IMG/VR virus record: IMGVR_UViG_3300032820_000118
Location: 1-24,434 of that record
Strand: one strand, 5' to 3'
DNA from: a virus
Length of the DNA: 24,434 nt
Below, piece by piece: positions 1,061 to 16,545 of the stretch; position 1 is the stretch's first letter; the number at the start of each line of letters is the position of its first letter. The notes under the pieces are model-generated. The model worked only from the letters and a program-made list of their open reading frames with translations. It was not told the origin of the DNA and did no database searches. The translations under genes were made by a program, and so were the position numbers.

Positions 1061-2014
1061 ATGAGACATTTAGTTACTGGTGGTGCTGGCTTTCTTGGGT
1101 CGCATTTAGTTGATTCATTAATAAAAGACAATCAAGAGGTCATTTGTCTTGATAATTTTCATACTGGCAAGAAAAGAAATGTTGCCCATCTGATTGGTCA
1201 CAAGAACTTTGAACTGATTAGACATGATGTAATTGAGCCCATACTGCTAGAAGTTGACCGTATTTGGCATTTAGCTTGTCCAGCAAGTCCTGTTCAGTAC
1301 CAAATAAATCCCATAAAAACCATAAAAACTAGCTTTTTTGGTACATATAATATGCTCGGATTAGCAAAAAGATCGGGAGCAAGAATACTTTTTACCAGTA
1401 CTTCAGAGATTTATGGCGACCCACAAATCCACCCACAGCCAGAATATTATCTCGGCAATGTAAATACGATTGGACCTCGTGCCTGTTATGACGAGGGAAA
1501 AAGAATATCTGAAACATTGATGACTGATTATAAAAGAGTTAATAATGTACAGATTCGCATTGCTCGTATATTTAATACTTATGGTCCAAGAATGTTAAAA
1601 AATGATGGAAGGGTAGTTAGTAACTTTATTACACAGGCATTAGCCAACAAACCAATTACTGTTTATGGAACAGGTACACAAACTAGGTGCTTTTGTTATG
1701 TAGATGATATGATTGCTGGACTTAAAAAACTTATGGATTCTGATTGTTCAAAGCCGATAAATTTAGGCAACCCTGTAGAAATCACAGTTAATGAGTTGGC
1801 AATGCGTATATCAAATAAAATTAATTCTGCTTTACCCCATGTAAATTTACCATTGCCAGAAGATGACCCACAAAGAAGAAACCCAGACATAACATTGGCA
1901 AAAGAAACTTTAGATTGGTTGCCGACAGTTTCACTAGATGATGGACTTGATGAAACAATAGATTATTTTAAATCATTTAAAAAAATTACTTGGAATAAGG
2001 AGGCTGCATATTAA
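1061..2014 (+). CDS. UDP-glucuronate decarboxylase (UDP-xylose synthase), short-chain dehydrogenase family
   Basis: A 317-residue NAD-dependent sugar-nucleotide enzyme expected to convert UDP-glucuronate to UDP-xylose. The N-terminal Rossmann motif GGAGFLG (residues 7-13) and the NAD-ribose aspartate D31 (CLDNF) are intact. So are the TSTSE catalytic region (112-116) and the Tyr143-x3-Lys147 pair inside [11 protein letters not shown]. The signatures [20 protein letters not shown] and LGNP are typical of UXS enzymes rather than other epimerases. Length is normal for a complete bacterial UXS. It has no clear SD and begins about 60 bases after the control region. Its stop overlaps the next gene's start (TAATG). 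Being phage-borne beside a glycosyltransferase, it may supply a pentose donor; a role in host surface polysaccharide is the alternative. Confidence 0.9.
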
Positions 2015-3333
2015 TGGGAGCTTCAATATTCGAAATTGAGCATAACGGATTGTTTTATGAGTTTGAATTTGATAGTGACCATAAATGGACACATCACACA
2101 AAATGGCCTGATGGTCAGACATCATATTCATTGTTACAGGGAGCAGGGCAAACTTTAGAAAATGCCAAGAAAAGGTGTAAGGAACATATTATTGCTTGGT
2201 ACGAAAATCCAGAAAGCTTTCATGTTGACGATAAATATGTCGACATGAATAATAAGTACATTAAAAAAATGCAAAAACGCAAGGAGGATTTAGGTACTGT
2301 GATTTCAACTGAATGTTCTTTATCAGAACTAAAACCATATAAAAACAATTCAAAAATTCATCCCGATAAACAAATTAAAAATATTGTTGCATCAATTAAG
2401 CAGTTTGGATTTACACAGCCTATTGTTTGTGATGAAGAAAAAACCATTCTTTCTGGTCATGGTAGATATGAAGCTGCCAAGCAGATGCAGATTGAAGAGG
2501 TGCCAATTCGAATTGTAGAAAATTTAACTGATGCACAAAAAAAAGCATATGTTATAGCTGATAATAAAATTGCAGAACAATCTGAATGGGATGAACAAAA
2601 GGTCTTAGATGAACTTGCAGAACTTGCAAACTTAGATGATCTACATCAGGATATTGTTGATATTTTAGATTACAATACTTTTTCTTTTTATACTGTCAGA
2701 CAGATGGCTGTTGCAGATTTAAAGCCACATCCTAAAAACTACAAAGCCCATCCTGAAGATCAATTAGAACATTTAAAGCAATCTATTACAGATAATGGTA
2801 TATATAGAAATGTGATTGTTGCTAAAGACAACACAATTCTTGCTGGTCATGGTGTAGTTAAGGCTGCACAGTCTTTAGGACTTACTTCAGTACCAGTATT
2901 AAAGTTGCAGCTTGAATCTGATAGTATTGAAGCTGTTAAATTACTTACAGCAGATAACGAGGTATCGCATTTAGGCGAGGTCGATGATCGTGCTTTATCC
3001 AATATTCTTAAAGAGATCATGGAAAAAAGTGATCTTTTAGGTACAGGCTATGATGAAATGATGTTGCAGAACTTGTTGTATGTAACAAGACCAGCATCAG
3101 AAATAAAAACTACAGATCATGCTGCTGAATGGATTGGTATGCCAGATTTCGAAATATCTGAGGAAGCAAAAAAGTTAATAATAAACTTTGAAACATATGA
3201 TGACAAAAAAGTATTTTGCGAACAAAATAATTTTTTATTTAATGAAAAGCAAACTGAGTCACTTTGGTTTCCTGAGAAAGAACGAAGAGACATTACATCT
3301 GTTGGATTTGAGGTAGAAGATGAAGAAGCCTAA
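2014..3333 (+). CDS. Tandem ParB/sulfiredoxin-fold domain protein
   Basis: A 439-residue protein with three parts. An N-terminal ~95 residues of unknown type (FEIEHNGLFYEFEF) comes first. Two ParB/Srx-type domains follow: about 102-215, starting LSELKPYKNN with signature GHGRYEAA (148-155), and about 230-340, starting VADLKPHPKN with AGHGVVKAA (277-285). The second domain has lost the arginine after GHG. The C-terminal part (from about 372, WIGMPDFE, ending near TESLWFPE) matches a tail I recall from other phage ParB-type proteins. AAGGAGG lies at 1997-2003, about ten bases before the start, and the start overlaps the decarboxylase stop (TAATG). ParB-type domains often sit beside DNA-modification or terminase genes in phages; the exact activity (nuclease, nucleotide-dependent clamp, or targeting factor) cannot be told from sequence. 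Confidence 0.8.
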   Translation: MGASIFEIEHNGLFYEFEFDSDHKWTHHTKWPDGQTSYSLLQGAGQTLENAKKRCKEHIIAWYENPESFHVDDKYVDMNNKYIKKMQKRKEDLGTVISTECSLSELKPYKNNSKIHPDKQIKNIVASIKQFGFTQPIVCDEEKTILSGHGRYEAAKQMQIEEVPIRIVENLTDAQKKAYVIADNKIAEQSEWDEQKVLDELAELANLDDLHQDIVDILDYNTFSFYTVRQMAVADLKPHPKNYKAHPEDQLEHLKQSITDNGIYRNVIVAKDNTILAGHGVVKAAQSLGLTSVPVLKLQLESDSIEAVKLLTADNEVSHLGEVDDRALSNILKEIMEKSDLLGTGYDEMMLQNLLYVTRPASEIKTTDHAAEWIGMPDFEISEEAKKLIINFETYDDKKVFCEQNNFLFNEKQTESLWFPEKERRDITSVGFEVEDEEA

Positions 3334-4201
3334 ATATCCTGTATATGTAATATCAAAAGGCAGAGCAGATACTTGTCTGACAGCAAATTTTTTATTAAAA
3401 GATAAAGTTAACTTTAGATTAGTTATAGAACCACAAGAATATGACAAATATGCTAAACACTACGATTCGTCGATAATTATTACAACACCATTTAAAAATT
3501 TGGGATTGGGATCAATACCAGTTAGAAATTTTGTTTGGGAACATAGCAAATCAATAGGAGCAAAAAGACATTGGATAATGGATGATAATATACGCAGTAT
3601 TCATAGAAAATATAAAAACACTCGTATCCGTGTTAATGGCAATATTGGTTTGAGATGTTGCGAAGATTTTACAGATAGATATACAAATATTGCTATTGCT
3701 GGTTTAAATTACGTTTCGTTTGCAATAAAAAGAACACAGCCACCATATCAACTTAATGCTCATGTTTATTCCACATTGTTAATTGATAATTCGTTAGACA
3801 TAAGGTGGCGTGGTAGATATAACGAGGATACTGATTTATGTTTACAAGCTCTGTCACTTGGACTTTGTACTGTTAATTTTAATGCTTTTTTAATCGAAAA
3901 AATGCACACAATGACCATGAAAGGAGGTAATACAGACCAACTTTATAAAGGTGATGGCAGATTAACTATGGCAAGAAGTTTAGAAAAAATGTGGCCAAAA
4001 GTTGTAGAAACAACAAGAAAATTTCAAAGACCACAACATCATATACAAAATAATTGGCAAAAATTTGATACACAATTGATAAGAAGAAAAGATATAGATT
4101 GGGAAAATATACAAAAAACAGATAATTATGGATTACGATTAGTTCAATTGAAACAACCAAAAAGTGGTTCTAAAGAACTAAAAAGACTTTTTGAGAAATA
4201 A
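3320..4201 (+). CDS. TET-associated-type (TAGT/GREB1-like) glycosyltransferase, candidate DNA glycosyltransferase
   Basis: A 293-residue GT-A-type glycosyltransferase. It opens with YPVYVISKGRAD (6-17), then VIEPQEYDKY, LGLGSIPVRNFVWEH (61-75) and HWIMDDNI (84-91), whose DDN fits the metal/nucleotide-sugar motif. A second acidic motif RYNEDTDLCLQ (166-176) and a KGGNTDQLY segment follow. This order matches the phage glycosyltransferases associated with TET/JBP dioxygenases, which are proposed to glycosylate modified bases in phage DNA. The start overlaps the ParB-domain gene by 14 bases, with GAGGT upstream, and the stop abuts the terminase small-subunit start. No base hydroxylase or DNA methylase is visible here, so the acceptor base and sugar are inferred. 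Confidence 0.75.
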   Translation: MKKPKYPVYVISKGRADTCLTANFLLKDKVNFRLVIEPQEYDKYAKHYDSSIIITTPFKNLGLGSIPVRNFVWEHSKSIGAKRHWIMDDNIRSIHRKYKNTRIRVNGNIGLRCCEDFTDRYTNIAIAGLNYVSFAIKRTQPPYQLNAHVYSTLLIDNSLDIRWRGRYNEDTDLCLQALSLGLCTVNFNAFLIEKMHTMTMKGGNTDQLYKGDGRLTMARSLEKMWPKVVETTRKFQRPQHHIQNNWQKFDTQLIRRKDIDWENIQKTDNYGLRLVQLKQPKSGSKELKRLFEK

Positions 4202-11638: not shown

Positions 11639-11805
11639 TGGGAATCTTCGCTTTCAGACGAATGAGAGAACAGGAGGCTACTAAATCAGTAGCCCCTGAA
11701 CCTCTTAAAAAAACAAAACGTAAGCCTAAATTAAAACAAAATGGCAATAACGATAGACGCAACAGTGGGGGGAGCATCAGCGAACAGTTACATAACACTG
11801 TCTGA
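11638..11805 (+). CDS. Small basic hypothetical protein (55 aa), overlaps next gene
   Basis: A 55-residue frame starting MGIFAFRRMREQEATKS and continuing into a lysine-rich segment (PLKKTKRKPKLKQ). It begins in the stop of the preceding gene (TAATG) and runs 65 bases into the connector gene in another frame. The first ~35 codons lie in a 102-base space otherwise without a gene. Short 'MG(I/M)F..RR.RE' proteins occur at this position in related phages as I recall, but no function is known. The C-terminal part is read over the neighbour and is probably unconstrained. Confidence 0.55.
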   Translation: MGIFAFRRMREQEATKSVAPEPLKKTKRKPKLKQNGNNDRRNSGGSISEQLHNTV

Positions 11806-12301
11806 TGCAAACGCAATTGTAGAAGGATTAGTTCTTGATGATGATGTTTCAGTATGGGATAGTTCAAATACTGACAACAAAAACAGAGCTTTATATACTG
11901 CGGCAGTTAGAGTTGACCGAGAAAGATTTTTAGGTGCAAAAGTAACTAATACCCAAGCATTACAATGGCCTCGAACAGGAGTAAGGAAACCTGATACTTA
12001 TATCAATACCTATGCAACAGGCTTTCCTTTTCGAATAACAACTGATTATTTTACAGATACAGAAGTTCCAGAACAAGTAAAAAAAGCACAAGTAATTCTT
12101 GCAGTTTATTTGAATAATAATAGGAATGGGTTAGGATTAAGTGGCTTAGAGGATTACAAAAATGTAAAAATTGGTAACCTAGAAGCAACACCGAATTTTT
12201 ATGGTTCGGTTGGTGCTGATAGAGTACCACCACTATTTGAACGTTACTTTACTGGGTTACGTCATAGTGGACCCGGCAACGTCGCAATTAAAAGGAGTTA
12301 A
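11741..12301 (+). CDS. Head-tail connector/adaptor, 'DnaT-like' phage family
   Basis: A 186-residue protein. Its N-terminus GGASANSYITLSDANAIVEG and the middle ALYTAAVRVDRERF, then ALQWPRTGV and VPEQVKKAQVILAVYL, are the pattern of phage proteins annotated as 'DnaT-like ssDNA-binding'. The gene position (after capsid, before the head-closure genes) and helical bundle pattern instead fit a gp6/gp15-type connector that binds below the portal. The DnaT label should not be taken as a replication role. The start lies within the 55-residue gene. AGGAG near its 3' end serves the next gene. Confidence 0.75.
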   Translation: MAITIDATVGGASANSYITLSDANAIVEGLVLDDDVSVWDSSNTDNKNRALYTAAVRVDRERFLGAKVTNTQALQWPRTGVRKPDTYINTYATGFPFRITTDYFTDTEVPEQVKKAQVILAVYLNNNRNGLGLSGLEDYKNVKIGNLEATPNFYGSVGADRVPPLFERYFTGLRHSGPGNVAIKRS

Positions 12302-12877: not shown

Positions 12878-13222
12878 ATGGCTAGAGAAATAAGACTTTC
12901 TGGAATAGGAGATCATTTCAAAGGAAAAGTAGAAACAACAGTTCGTAAGGCTACTTTTATATGGAAAGAAAAAGTTGTTAAAGCTACACCTCGTGATACC
13001 GGTAATTTAGCTAGATCATGGGACACAGATATTGAACCATTTGTTGGTGAAATTTTTACAAATGTGGAATATGCTGAACCAGTTTGTTATGGAACTAATT
13101 TGCCACCTAGTTGGAAAGGACAATTTAGAACATCTCCAAAAAATAATACAATAAAAGGCTTTCCAGAATTAATTGCTAAACAGATAGAAAGTGTGATTAA
13201 AGATGAATTTAGGAGATCATAA
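12878..13222 (+). CDS. HK97 gp10-family neck/tail-completion protein
   Basis: A 114-residue protein with the HK97 gp10-type signature: a helical N-terminus, then VVKATPRDTGNLARSW (about 37-52) and IFTNVEYAEPVCYGT, and a C-terminal helix. GAGGT lies before the start, and the stop overlaps the next gene (ATAATG). The family acts at the head-tail junction. Length is typical. Confidence 0.8.
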   Translation: MAREIRLSGIGDHFKGKVETTVRKATFIWKEKVVKATPRDTGNLARSWDTDIEPFVGEIFTNVEYAEPVCYGTNLPPSWKGQFRTSPKNNTIKGFPELIAKQIESVIKDEFRRS

Positions 13223-13809: not shown

Positions 13810-14226
13810 ATGGCTGTAAAAGGTGATGTTGGAAAAATTATGTTCCACAATGCTGCTGGTACTGAAGCAGACGTAAGTGATCTTAGGTCTTGGAACTTAT
13901 CAGTTTCCAAAGATACTATGGAAACCACAAAAATGGGTGATACTTCCAAAACTTTTGTCGGTGGACTTATTTCAGGAGAAGGTTCTGCAACTTTACTTTA
14001 CAATCCATCTGGAAACTCAGATTATCAAGCATTTATAGATGATGCTTTAGTTACTGGAGATCAAGCTGACGCATTATTTGAACTATTCCCAGATTCAGCA
14101 CAATCTGCCAAAAAGATTGGATTTTCTGGCATAGTAACTAATGCAGAATATGGTGCAACACTTGGGGAAATTCAAGAAGTCAACATCACATTCATTACAA
14201 GTGGTGCCATTACATCAGCCATATAG
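13810..14226 (+). CDS. Major tail (tube) protein
   Basis: A 138-residue protein just before the frameshifting chaperone pair, the fixed position of the tube subunit. Its pattern is characteristic of small siphovirus tube proteins: VGKIMFHN, VSDLRSWNLSVSKDTMETTKMGD, SGEGSATLLYNPSGNSDY, then LGEIQEVNITFITSG at the end. The chain is mostly beta with a helix around AFIDDALVTGDQADALFEL. There is no C-terminal Ig-like domain. It polymerises as hexamer rings around the tape measure. Confidence 0.8.
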   Translation: MAVKGDVGKIMFHNAAGTEADVSDLRSWNLSVSKDTMETTKMGDTSKTFVGGLISGEGSATLLYNPSGNSDYQAFIDDALVTGDQADALFELFPDSAQSAKKIGFSGIVTNAEYGATLGEIQEVNITFITSGAITSAI

Positions 14227-14231
14227 TATAT

Positions 14232-14255
14232 TAGGGTAATACAATTAAAACCCTA
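14232..14255 (+). other. Inverted repeat overlapping the chaperone start codon
   Basis: TAGGGT (14232-14237) and its exact complement ACCCTA (14250-14255) can pair as a 6-bp stem around a 12-base AT-rich loop. The A of the ATG at 14255 lies in the stem. It is not followed by a T-run, so it does not look like an intrinsic terminator. It may damp translation of the chaperone relative to the tube protein. Confidence 0.4.
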
Positions 14256-14623
14256 TGGCAAAAAGAAATGTAGACCTTATTACTGAAGCATTTAGCGAAG
14301 TAATGGGTAAAAGAAGAAAGTATGTACTCAATAAACCTGATGGATCAATTTTAAAAGAATTATATTTTCCACCATTAACTAGACATGACAGAATACAGGC
14401 ACAAATTTCATCTGGAACAGATGAGGCTTTAGTAATATCAACAAGATTATTATGTCAACTAGCAGAGAATGAAGATGGTTCAAAAGCATTTGCTTCTGCT
14501 GATGCTGAAAATTTAAAAAGGTTTTTACCAGAACAAGTTTTAAATGAATTAGAAATATTTATGATGGGAATAAATGCAGATTTTGATTCAGCAAAAAACG
14601 AATCAAGCGAGATAACTGGCTAA
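14255..14623 (+). CDS. G: Tail assembly chaperone G (zero-frame product)
   Basis: A 122-residue protein between tube and tape-measure genes, equivalent to lambda gpG. It has VMGKRRKYVLNKPDGSILKE, FPPLTRHDRIQAQ, and a C-terminal helical part (FLPEQVLNELEIFMMG). The A AAA AAC heptamer at 14593-14599, eight codons before the TAA, marks the frameshift site. Ribosomes that do not slip make this product; those that do make G-T. G coats the tape measure during assembly and is absent from the finished virion. No SD is visible, and the start codon is partly inside a small inverted repeat. Confidence 0.8.
   Translation: MAKRNVDLITEAFSEVMGKRRKYVLNKPDGSILKELYFPPLTRHDRIQAQISSGTDEALVISTRLLCQLAENEDGSKAFASADAENLKRFLPEQVLNELEIFMMGINADFDSAKNESSEITG
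14593..14599 (+). promoter_or_regulatory. -1 ribosomal frameshift site A AAA AAC
   Basis: The zero-frame codons are gcA AAA AAC, a perfect X XXY YYZ slippery heptamer. Slipping one base back gives AAA AAA and enters the frame that stays open to 14781. It is placed as in the lambda G/G-T pair. Confidence 0.88.
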
Positions 14624-14781
14624 ATTTCGAGTTTTTTCTCGCAACACAACTTGGAAAAACATTAAGTGAATTAAGAAAGTCTTTAACAGATGAAGAACTT
14701 TTACATTGGGCTGCATATTACACATTAAAGAATGAAAGGGAAAAGCAAGAAATGAATCGTCAAAGACATAAAACAGGCTAA
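14599..14781 (+). CDS. T: Tail chaperone T-part, expressed as G-T fusion by -1 frameshift
   Basis: The -1 frame from the slippery site encodes 60 residues. It includes NWLNFEFFLATQLGKTLSEL, LTDEELLHWAAYYTLKNERE and a basic end (MNRQRHKTG). The WAAYYxLKNE pattern is the usual T-domain signature, which recruits tail tube subunits while G binds the tape measure. There is no good start codon or SD of its own, so it is probably made only as the roughly 175-residue G-T fusion starting at 14255. The stop at 14779-14781 precedes the tape-measure gene by 24 bases. Confidence 0.85.
   Translation, partial: RIKRDNWLNFEFFLATQLGKTLSELRKSLTDEELLHWAAYYTLKNEREKQEMNRQRHKTG
14607..14642 (+). other. Candidate stimulatory stem-loop for frameshifting
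   Basis: GCGAGA (14607-14612) pairs exactly with TCTCGC (14637-14642). After a small internal loop, AACT (14614-14617) pairs with AGTT (14630-14633). The stem starts seven bases after the slippery heptamer, the usual distance for stimulators, and the zero-frame TAA lies in the loop. A competing 4-bp CGAG/CTCG hairpin is also possible. Confidence 0.55.
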
Positions 14782-14805: not shown

Positions 14806-16545
14806 GTGGCACAATCTACGGTCAGATTAATAGTTGATGCTCAAAATGCAATTAGACCTTTGCAGCGCACTGACCAGATCACAAGAAATTTAAGTAGAAA
14901 TACAGACAAATTAAAAGGCAGATTAGATAAAGCAAACAGATCATTTCATTCAGTTGGTAGAGGGGCAAAAACGGCCAGTGCTGGTGTAAATACATTAGTC
15001 GCTTCACTTAGACCACTTTTAACTGCTCTAGCACTTATTGGTACTGCTAGATTTATATTTGTAAAAACTGCTGAACTACAAACTCAAAGAGTTGCTTTAG
15101 TTCAATTAACTGGTTCTGTTGAAAAAACAAATAAAATTATTAAAGAATTACAAGCGTTTGGTAATGTTACACCATTTACCAGTAGTGAATTAATAACACA
15201 AGCTAAGAGATTAAAAGCATTTGGATTTGAAACTGAAAATTTAGTTGATATGGTGAAAAGGCTTTCAGATGTTGCTGGTGCCACAGGAGCTGATTTAAGT
15301 GGGATATCAACCGCATTTGGTCAAATATTTGCTAAAGGCAAACTACAAAGAGAGGAAGAATTACAACTTTTAGAAAGAGGAGTAGATATTACAAGTGAAC
15401 TAAAAAGAATAACTGGTAAGAGTGGTGAAGATTTTGAAAGCATGATGAGAAAAGGACAAATAAGTTCTGAAATGGTACTACAGGCATTAAAAAATCTTAC
15501 GAATGAGGGAGGTGTATTTTTTGGAGGAGCAACAAAACAATCACAAACCTTAAATGGTCAAATATCTACATTGGTTGACAATGTAGAAACACTTGCAAGA
15601 ACTATTGGAGATGCTTTGGAACCATCTTTAATGGCAGTTTTAAAAATAGCAAATAAAACATTGTCAGCAATAAATAGATTATTGTCGAGTGATTTTCAAA
15701 GACAAATAAGTGGATTTAGATTAAATCTTATAACCCCCGGTGGACTTAAAAGTGATTTAGAAAAAATAGAAAACTTTACAAAAAATATACAACCACTTGG
15801 TCTTGATACTGAGGCTATTGATCTTCGTATAAGTCAATTACAGGGAACCTCCGAACAAATAAAAAAAATTACAAACAAAATAAATAAAGGTGGAGTATTA
15901 AATAGACCATTTTTTACAACAAAGGAAGAGGAAACACAAGTTTTAGAAACACAAGAAGCTATAACACAAAAAATAAATGAATTAACTGAACGAAAAAATC
16001 AATTATTAACTGTAACAAGTGAAAAAACTACAGATATAAGTAATGGGTTAAAAAATAATAAAACTGATGCTGATAAATTGGCTGAATCCTTCGGTAAAAT
16101 CGGAGATACAATTGCTACTGGAATTTCTGATGCTTTAGTAGATGCTATTAATGGCACTAAGACTTTAGGTGAATCATTAAGAAATATTGTTAATGAATTA
16201 GCAACTTCATTTTTAAGACTTGGGATTAATTCAATGTTAAAGAGTACAGGTTCCAAATTATTTGCTAATTTGCCCGGATTTGCAAATGGTGGTAGACCAC
16301 CAGTAAATAAACCATCTATTGTTGGAGAAAGAGGACCAGAGGTCTTTGTTCCATCTATTGCTGGCAATATTATTGCAAACGATAAACTTGGAGGATCAAC
16401 AAATAATGTTGTTGTTAATGTTGACGCATCTGGTTCATCTATAGAAAGTGATGCTGCAAGTAGTGAACAATTAGGTAGATTAATAGGAGCAGCAATACAA
16501 TCAGAACTAATTAAAGAAAAAAGACCCGGAGGTTTATTAAGTTAA
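14806..16545 (+). CDS. Tail tape measure protein
   Basis: A 579-residue protein starting at GTG (the conserved MAQSTVRLIVDAQNA start follows). The N-terminus is basic and helical. A hydrophobic segment lies at about 62-90 (LVASLRPLLTALALIGTARF). The typical tape-measure core then includes TPFTSSELITQAKRLKAFGF, LSDVAGATGADLSGISTAFG and RGVDITSELKRITGK. The C-terminus has the frequent FANGGRP and GERGPEVFVPS motifs (about 493-515). Length sets tail length; at about 1.5 angstrom per residue it predicts a tail of roughly 80-90 nm, shorter than lambda. There is no peptidase domain. The stop overlaps the M-like gene. Confidence 0.92.
   Translation: MAQSTVRLIVDAQNAIRPLQRTDQITRNLSRNTDKLKGRLDKANRSFHSVGRGAKTASAGVNTLVASLRPLLTALALIGTARFIFVKTAELQTQRVALVQLTGSVEKTNKIIKELQAFGNVTPFTSSELITQAKRLKAFGFETENLVDMVKRLSDVAGATGADLSGISTAFGQIFAKGKLQREEELQLLERGVDITSELKRITGKSGEDFESMMRKGQISSEMVLQALKNLTNEGGVFFGGATKQSQTLNGQISTLVDNVETLARTIGDALEPSLMAVLKIANKTLSAINRLLSSDFQRQISGFRLNLITPGGLKSDLEKIENFTKNIQPLGLDTEAIDLRISQLQGTSEQIKKITNKINKGGVLNRPFFTTKEEETQVLETQEAITQKINELTERKNQLLTVTSEKTTDISNGLKNNKTDADKLAESFGKIGDTIATGISDALVDAINGTKTLGESLRNIVNELATSFLRLGINSMLKSTGSKLFANLPGFANGGRPPVNKPSIVGERGPEVFVPSIAGNIIANDKLGGSTNNVVVNVDASGSSIESDAASSEQLGRLIGAAIQSELIKEKRPGGLLS

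Follow-up and report, generated by a model that had tools for sequence, protein, structure and literature searches.

The locus considered here raises the question of how a short reading frame, overlapping the end of a putative tail assembly chaperone gene and shifted by one base relative to it, comes to be translated. The reading favored in this study, at a probability of roughly 95%, is a lambda-type programmed -1 ribosomal frameshift yielding a G protein of 122 amino acids and a G-T fusion of 175. The frameshift device itself is already known, and the window (the whole stretch of DNA analyzed, a virus fragment of 24,434 bases from a marine phage) is a new and well-supported example of it.

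Genomic setting of the locus

The G/T locus, with its signal elements, and the two genes flanking it lie on the plus strand. The genes run in the order major tail protein, G, T and tape measure, with PHROG matches on both sides of the G/T pair. The major tail protein gene (13810..14226; phrog_10528, 2.9e-41) is preceded by a tail terminator at 13222, and the tape measure gene (14806..16545, GTG start; phrog_9959 tape measure, 9.4e-35; Pfam TMP_3, 3e-23) is followed by minor tail proteins, both the terminator and the minor tail proteins being identified from PHROG profiles. The open reading frame between them (14255..14623, zero frame, 122 aa, ending at the TAA at 14621-14623) is assigned as a G-type tail assembly chaperone from its open frame, its PHROG matches and its position; the protein matches PHROG 20784 at 3e-27, and among the tail assembly chaperone profiles it matches phrog_344 alone, weakly (0.08). 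The major capsid protein of the window is 66-79% identical to those of the cyanosiphoviruses KBS-S-2A, S-H1 and MED4-184.

The T extension in the -1 frame

The T-type extension occupies 14599..14781 including its stop, with base 14599 shared by both frames. Translated from the CGA at 14599, it stays open for the 60 residues that had been predicted, to the TAA at 14779-14781, and its product matches phrog_337 (tail protein, 1.6e-7), phrog_25875 (tail assembly chaperone, 8.8e-5) and phrog_14766 (tail protein). When G and T are joined at the proposed shift point, the tail PHROG match runs unbroken across the junction (residues 51-155 of the joined product). A Pfam search of G and T returned no family above the cut-off, and so gave no match at the sequence level to lambda G or T.

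Relatives were collected in two scans that gave 145 records with both G and T, of which 106 were distinct; three wider scans brought the total to 270 distinct loci. In the window and in all 270 of these loci T is in the -1 frame relative to G and overlaps its 3' end, and the conserved residues of T begin exactly at the shift point. The -1 frame is shown to be under protein-coding constraint. The frame break by itself, and nothing more, could be read as a sequencing or assembly error or as the decay of a single fused gene, but 270 distinct loci have the same frame relation, and the signal recurs in S-H1 and KBS-S-2A, which are cultured phages. This reading, the least credible of those considered, is already refuted by conservation.

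A second alternative is that T is a separate protein whose translation begins close to the stop of G, through reinitiation or coupling, with the A-run being incidental. The public record of phage S-H1 lists T as a free-standing small ORF without annotating a frameshift (L147:3375-3518), and some relatives have an internal ATG, GTG or TTG about 22-35 codons into T, both of which would fit separate translation. Against it, an ATG, GTG or TTG in the T frame before the end of G was found in none of the 270 loci, and 66 of the 106 close relatives have no such codon in the first 40 codons of T. Additionally, separate translation would not account for conserved residues that begin at the shift, and would leave the hairpin described below unexplained. 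It is therefore considered very improbable.

In the public records of KBS-S-2A (L390:952-1505) and MED4-184 (L148:3346-3545) T is absent altogether. The expectation that annotation from ATG-to-stop frames alone would miss T is thus borne out in these two phages, as well as by the isolated ORF of S-H1; in cyanophage-related marine siphoviruses, T is either omitted by gene callers or entered as a small ORF on its own.

The slippery heptamer

The heptamer A AAA AAC (14593..14599) lies in the G frame as originally predicted: positions 14591-14599 of the frame opening at 14255 read GCA AAA AAC, a register that fits a -1 tandem slip. The window is A-rich and contains 24 copies of AAAAAAC against 17.7 expected, which is not unusual, and heptamer counts by themselves carry no signal. 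The conservation of the site is a different matter, as every one of the 206 loci from two clades has either A AAA AAC or A AAA AAA. In the window-like clade (147 loci) these forms number 106 and 41, and in the S-H1-like clade (59 loci) 57 and 2, the count of 57 including one locus (L283) scored by eye. The heptamer is accordingly retained as A AAA AAM rather than strictly as A AAA AAC, with its last base alternating between C and A (about 17 switches on the tree) and being T or G in none of the 206 loci. The likely reason lies in the coding of the -1 frame, where T would create TGA and G would replace a conserved Arg. G, the last base most prone to shifting in E. coli, is thus never used at position 14599 or its counterparts in these relatives. 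No link was found on the tree between the heptamer base (C or A) and the stop position discussed below (10 supported independent pairs; sign test, median p 0.25).

The original prediction also held that the A AAA AAC type is efficient in many systems. This is so on mammalian ribosomes, where the heptamer is very shifty. E. coli shifts far less on it than on A AAA AAG (PMC5009743), so a high efficiency cannot be assumed here, although the tRNAs of the host may differ from those of E. coli.

The spacer, the hairpin and the zero-frame stop

Downstream of the heptamer the predicted 7-nt spacer GAATCAA was confirmed (14600..14606), and its length is constant in all window-like and in S-H1-like relatives. 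It is followed by a hairpin, defined by RNA folding and comparison of variants, with an outer stem of GCGAGA (14607..14612) and TCTCGC (14637..14642) and an inner stem of AACT (14614..14617) and AGTT (14630..14633). RNAfold gives it -12.1 kcal/mol (z -3.4), and none of 200 shuffled sequences was equally stable. When codons were reshuffled so as to preserve the T peptide, 0 of 5,000 versions were as stable, and the exact 6-bp stem arose in 0.3%. The main ORFs of the window contain 57 in-frame heptamers of the form X XXY YYZ in 5,567 codons, among which the one at 14593 has the most stable downstream hairpin. The combination of an in-frame heptamer with this hairpin is therefore unusual, beyond what chance would give. 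An Rfam search found no matching family anywhere in the window.

The stem is also maintained in relatives. All 28 distinct versions of it among close relatives fold, with the hairpin starting 7 nt past the heptamer in each; four versions with GAGAGA in place of GCGAGA are re-paired as an 11-bp stem, and two loci (L037 and L143) have changed both arms of the inner stem, from AACT/AGTT to AATT/AATT. Formal covariation is modest because the close relatives vary little: one pair has changed on both sides, and 9 of 500 shuffles reach the same score. The RNAalifold consensus for close relatives is likewise weak (-3 kcal/mol), since the inner stem does not pair in the same register in every variant, and folding each variant separately is more informative. 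Constraint is further visible at the codon level, where the ratio of observed to expected synonymous variation is 0.35 in the stem compared with 0.59 in the rest of T. All 97 of 97 T sequences use CTC for the Leu encoded in the outer 3' arm, while CTC makes up only 9 of the 485 Leu codons in the main ORFs of the window.

Beyond the close relatives, S-H1-like phages keep the 7-nt spacing of the window with different base pairs (a GCAGG/CCTGC stem), and none of 2,000 recodings of the S-H1 hairpin was as stable. The KBS-S-2A locus likewise has A AAA AAC, a 7-nt spacer and a strong hairpin, its G gene giving no match in tblastn with the G of the window.

The stem had been expected to place the zero-frame stop in its loop. 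The stem and the loop position hold for the window, but the placement is lineage-specific. Of 205 loci, 41 have the stop in the loop and 164 have it in the spacer, and its place changed about 13 times on the tree, so the signal does not depend on a set position of the stop.

The constant spacing bears on a further alternative, namely that transcriptional slippage on the run of six or seven A adds a base to some of the mRNAs, thereby bringing the two frames together. The junction does offer a run of six A (seven in the relatives with A AAA AAA), although six A is short for polymerase slippage. Moreover, a polymerase slipping on a homopolymer would not require a hairpin at a constant distance of 7 nt, yet the spacing is conserved, and in the MED4-184-like clade, with only three A at the junction, T is still in the -1 frame. 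Slippage of the polymerase is thus judged to be as improbable as separate translation of T, and ribosomal frameshifting remains the preferred reading.

Proposed mechanism and products

Combined, the conservation of the heptamer (206 of 206 loci in two clades) and of the -1 frame (270 of 270) supports the predicted cassette giving a G/G-T chaperone pair. Under programmed frameshifting, most ribosomes would pass the heptamer and stop at the TAA at 14621-14623 to give G (122 aa, 13.7 kDa). A minority, stalled by the hairpin that begins after the 7-nt spacer while tRNA-Lys and tRNA-Asn occupy AAA AAC, would move both tRNAs back by one base onto AAA AAA, resume reading at CGA (14599) and end at the TAA reaching 14781, producing G-T (175 aa, 20.3 kDa). 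The parallel with lambda suggests that the G part coats the tape measure protein and that the T part recruits the major tail protein, in which case the ratio of G to G-T would matter for tail assembly.

The junction to search for had been given as SAKKRIKRDNW, which is revised here. In a tandem slip the AAC in the A site would be read as Asn before the slip, so that the main junction is predicted to be SAKN-RIKRDNW, and SAKKRIKRDNW would be a minor product of a single slip; according to the review of recoding sites cited above, the tRNA-Asn of E. coli allows double slippage only (PMC5009743). Trypsin would destroy either junction, cutting the predicted one into SAK, NR, IK and R. The peptides to be expected are instead DSAKNRIKR (tandem) or DSAKKRIKR (single) with Asp-N, and IFMMGINADFDSAKNRIKRDNWLNFE with Glu-C.

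A possible different slip signal in one clade of relatives

In the MED4-184/P-HS2-like clade, a sister clade, the heptamer X XXY YYZ was found in none of 64 loci, with T still in the -1 frame. All 64 loci instead share NNA AAG GAA TCY TAA followed by a G-rich stem (L148:3322-3390 and 63 further loci within L309-L388), and the hairpin of MED4-184 (L148) is more stable than 99% of its recodings. Since A_AAG is described as a minimal slip site, as in IS1222 (review, PMC5009743), the conserved motif suggests that this clade uses a candidate A_AAG single-tRNA slip site. The change in the type of slip signal maps once on the tree. One orthologous tail chaperone family may have had its whole recoding signal replaced while keeping the -1 relation of T. 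On this proposal, two clades have the tandem-slip heptamer A AAA AAM, the 7-nt spacer and a stem, and the MED4-184/P-HS2 clade, having lost the heptamer, has a single-tRNA A_AAG-type site with a G-rich stem (64 of 64 loci); the chances for and against it are about even. If true, the replacement would serve as a natural experiment in which one kind of shift signal gives way to another, bearing on how the G:G-T ratio is maintained.

Relation to known systems

Frameshifts in tail chaperone genes are a classical device, the best-known case being lambda gpG/gpGT with the heptamer G GGA AAG. The window resembles lambda in its gene order, its -1 frame, a slip near the 3' end of G, an adjacent tape measure gene and a T that is an extension without a start of its own. 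It differs in its heptamer (A AAA AAC rather than G GGA AAG), in a T of about 60 residues and in lacking any match at the Pfam level.

The heptamer, too, has been reported in the tail chaperones of other phages, namely the Caulobacter phage phiCbK group (PMC3556154), Acinetobacter phage Loki (PMC5313236) and the haloarchaeal HCTV-2 (PMC5009743). These are likened to the window by heptamer and kind of gene. The Loki heptamer is said to adjoin the stop (PMC5313236), whereas in the window the stop is the eighth codon after it, in the hairpin loop. Among cyanosiphoviruses, S-H1 and KBS-S-2A share A AAA AAC, the 7-nt spacer, a hairpin and a T in the -1 frame with the window; MED4-184/P-HS2 differ from it in having the conserved NNA AAG GAA TCY TAA site instead of the heptamer. 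A library search covering open-licence papers found no prior report of a frameshift in this gene of cyanosiphoviruses. The present analysis sets out in full a tail-chaperone frameshift for a large group of marine, cyanophage-related siphoviruses. Its natural variants (AAC or AAA in the heptamer, stop in the spacer or in the loop, alternative stems, and a clade with another slip site) allow the dependence of tail assembly on signal strength to be tested.

Other observations in the window

Two regions outside the tail genes also merit mention. Genes for a sugar-nucleotide epimerase/dehydratase, a ParB N-domain protein and a TET-associated glycosyltransferase (PF20691, 3.5e-43) are clustered at 1061-4198, before the terminase gene, and possibly constitute a DNA base-modification set. 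Additionally, a protein with a DnaT-like domain (PF20557, 4e-19) is encoded at 11741-12298 within the head-tail connector region, at a position where a connector would be expected.
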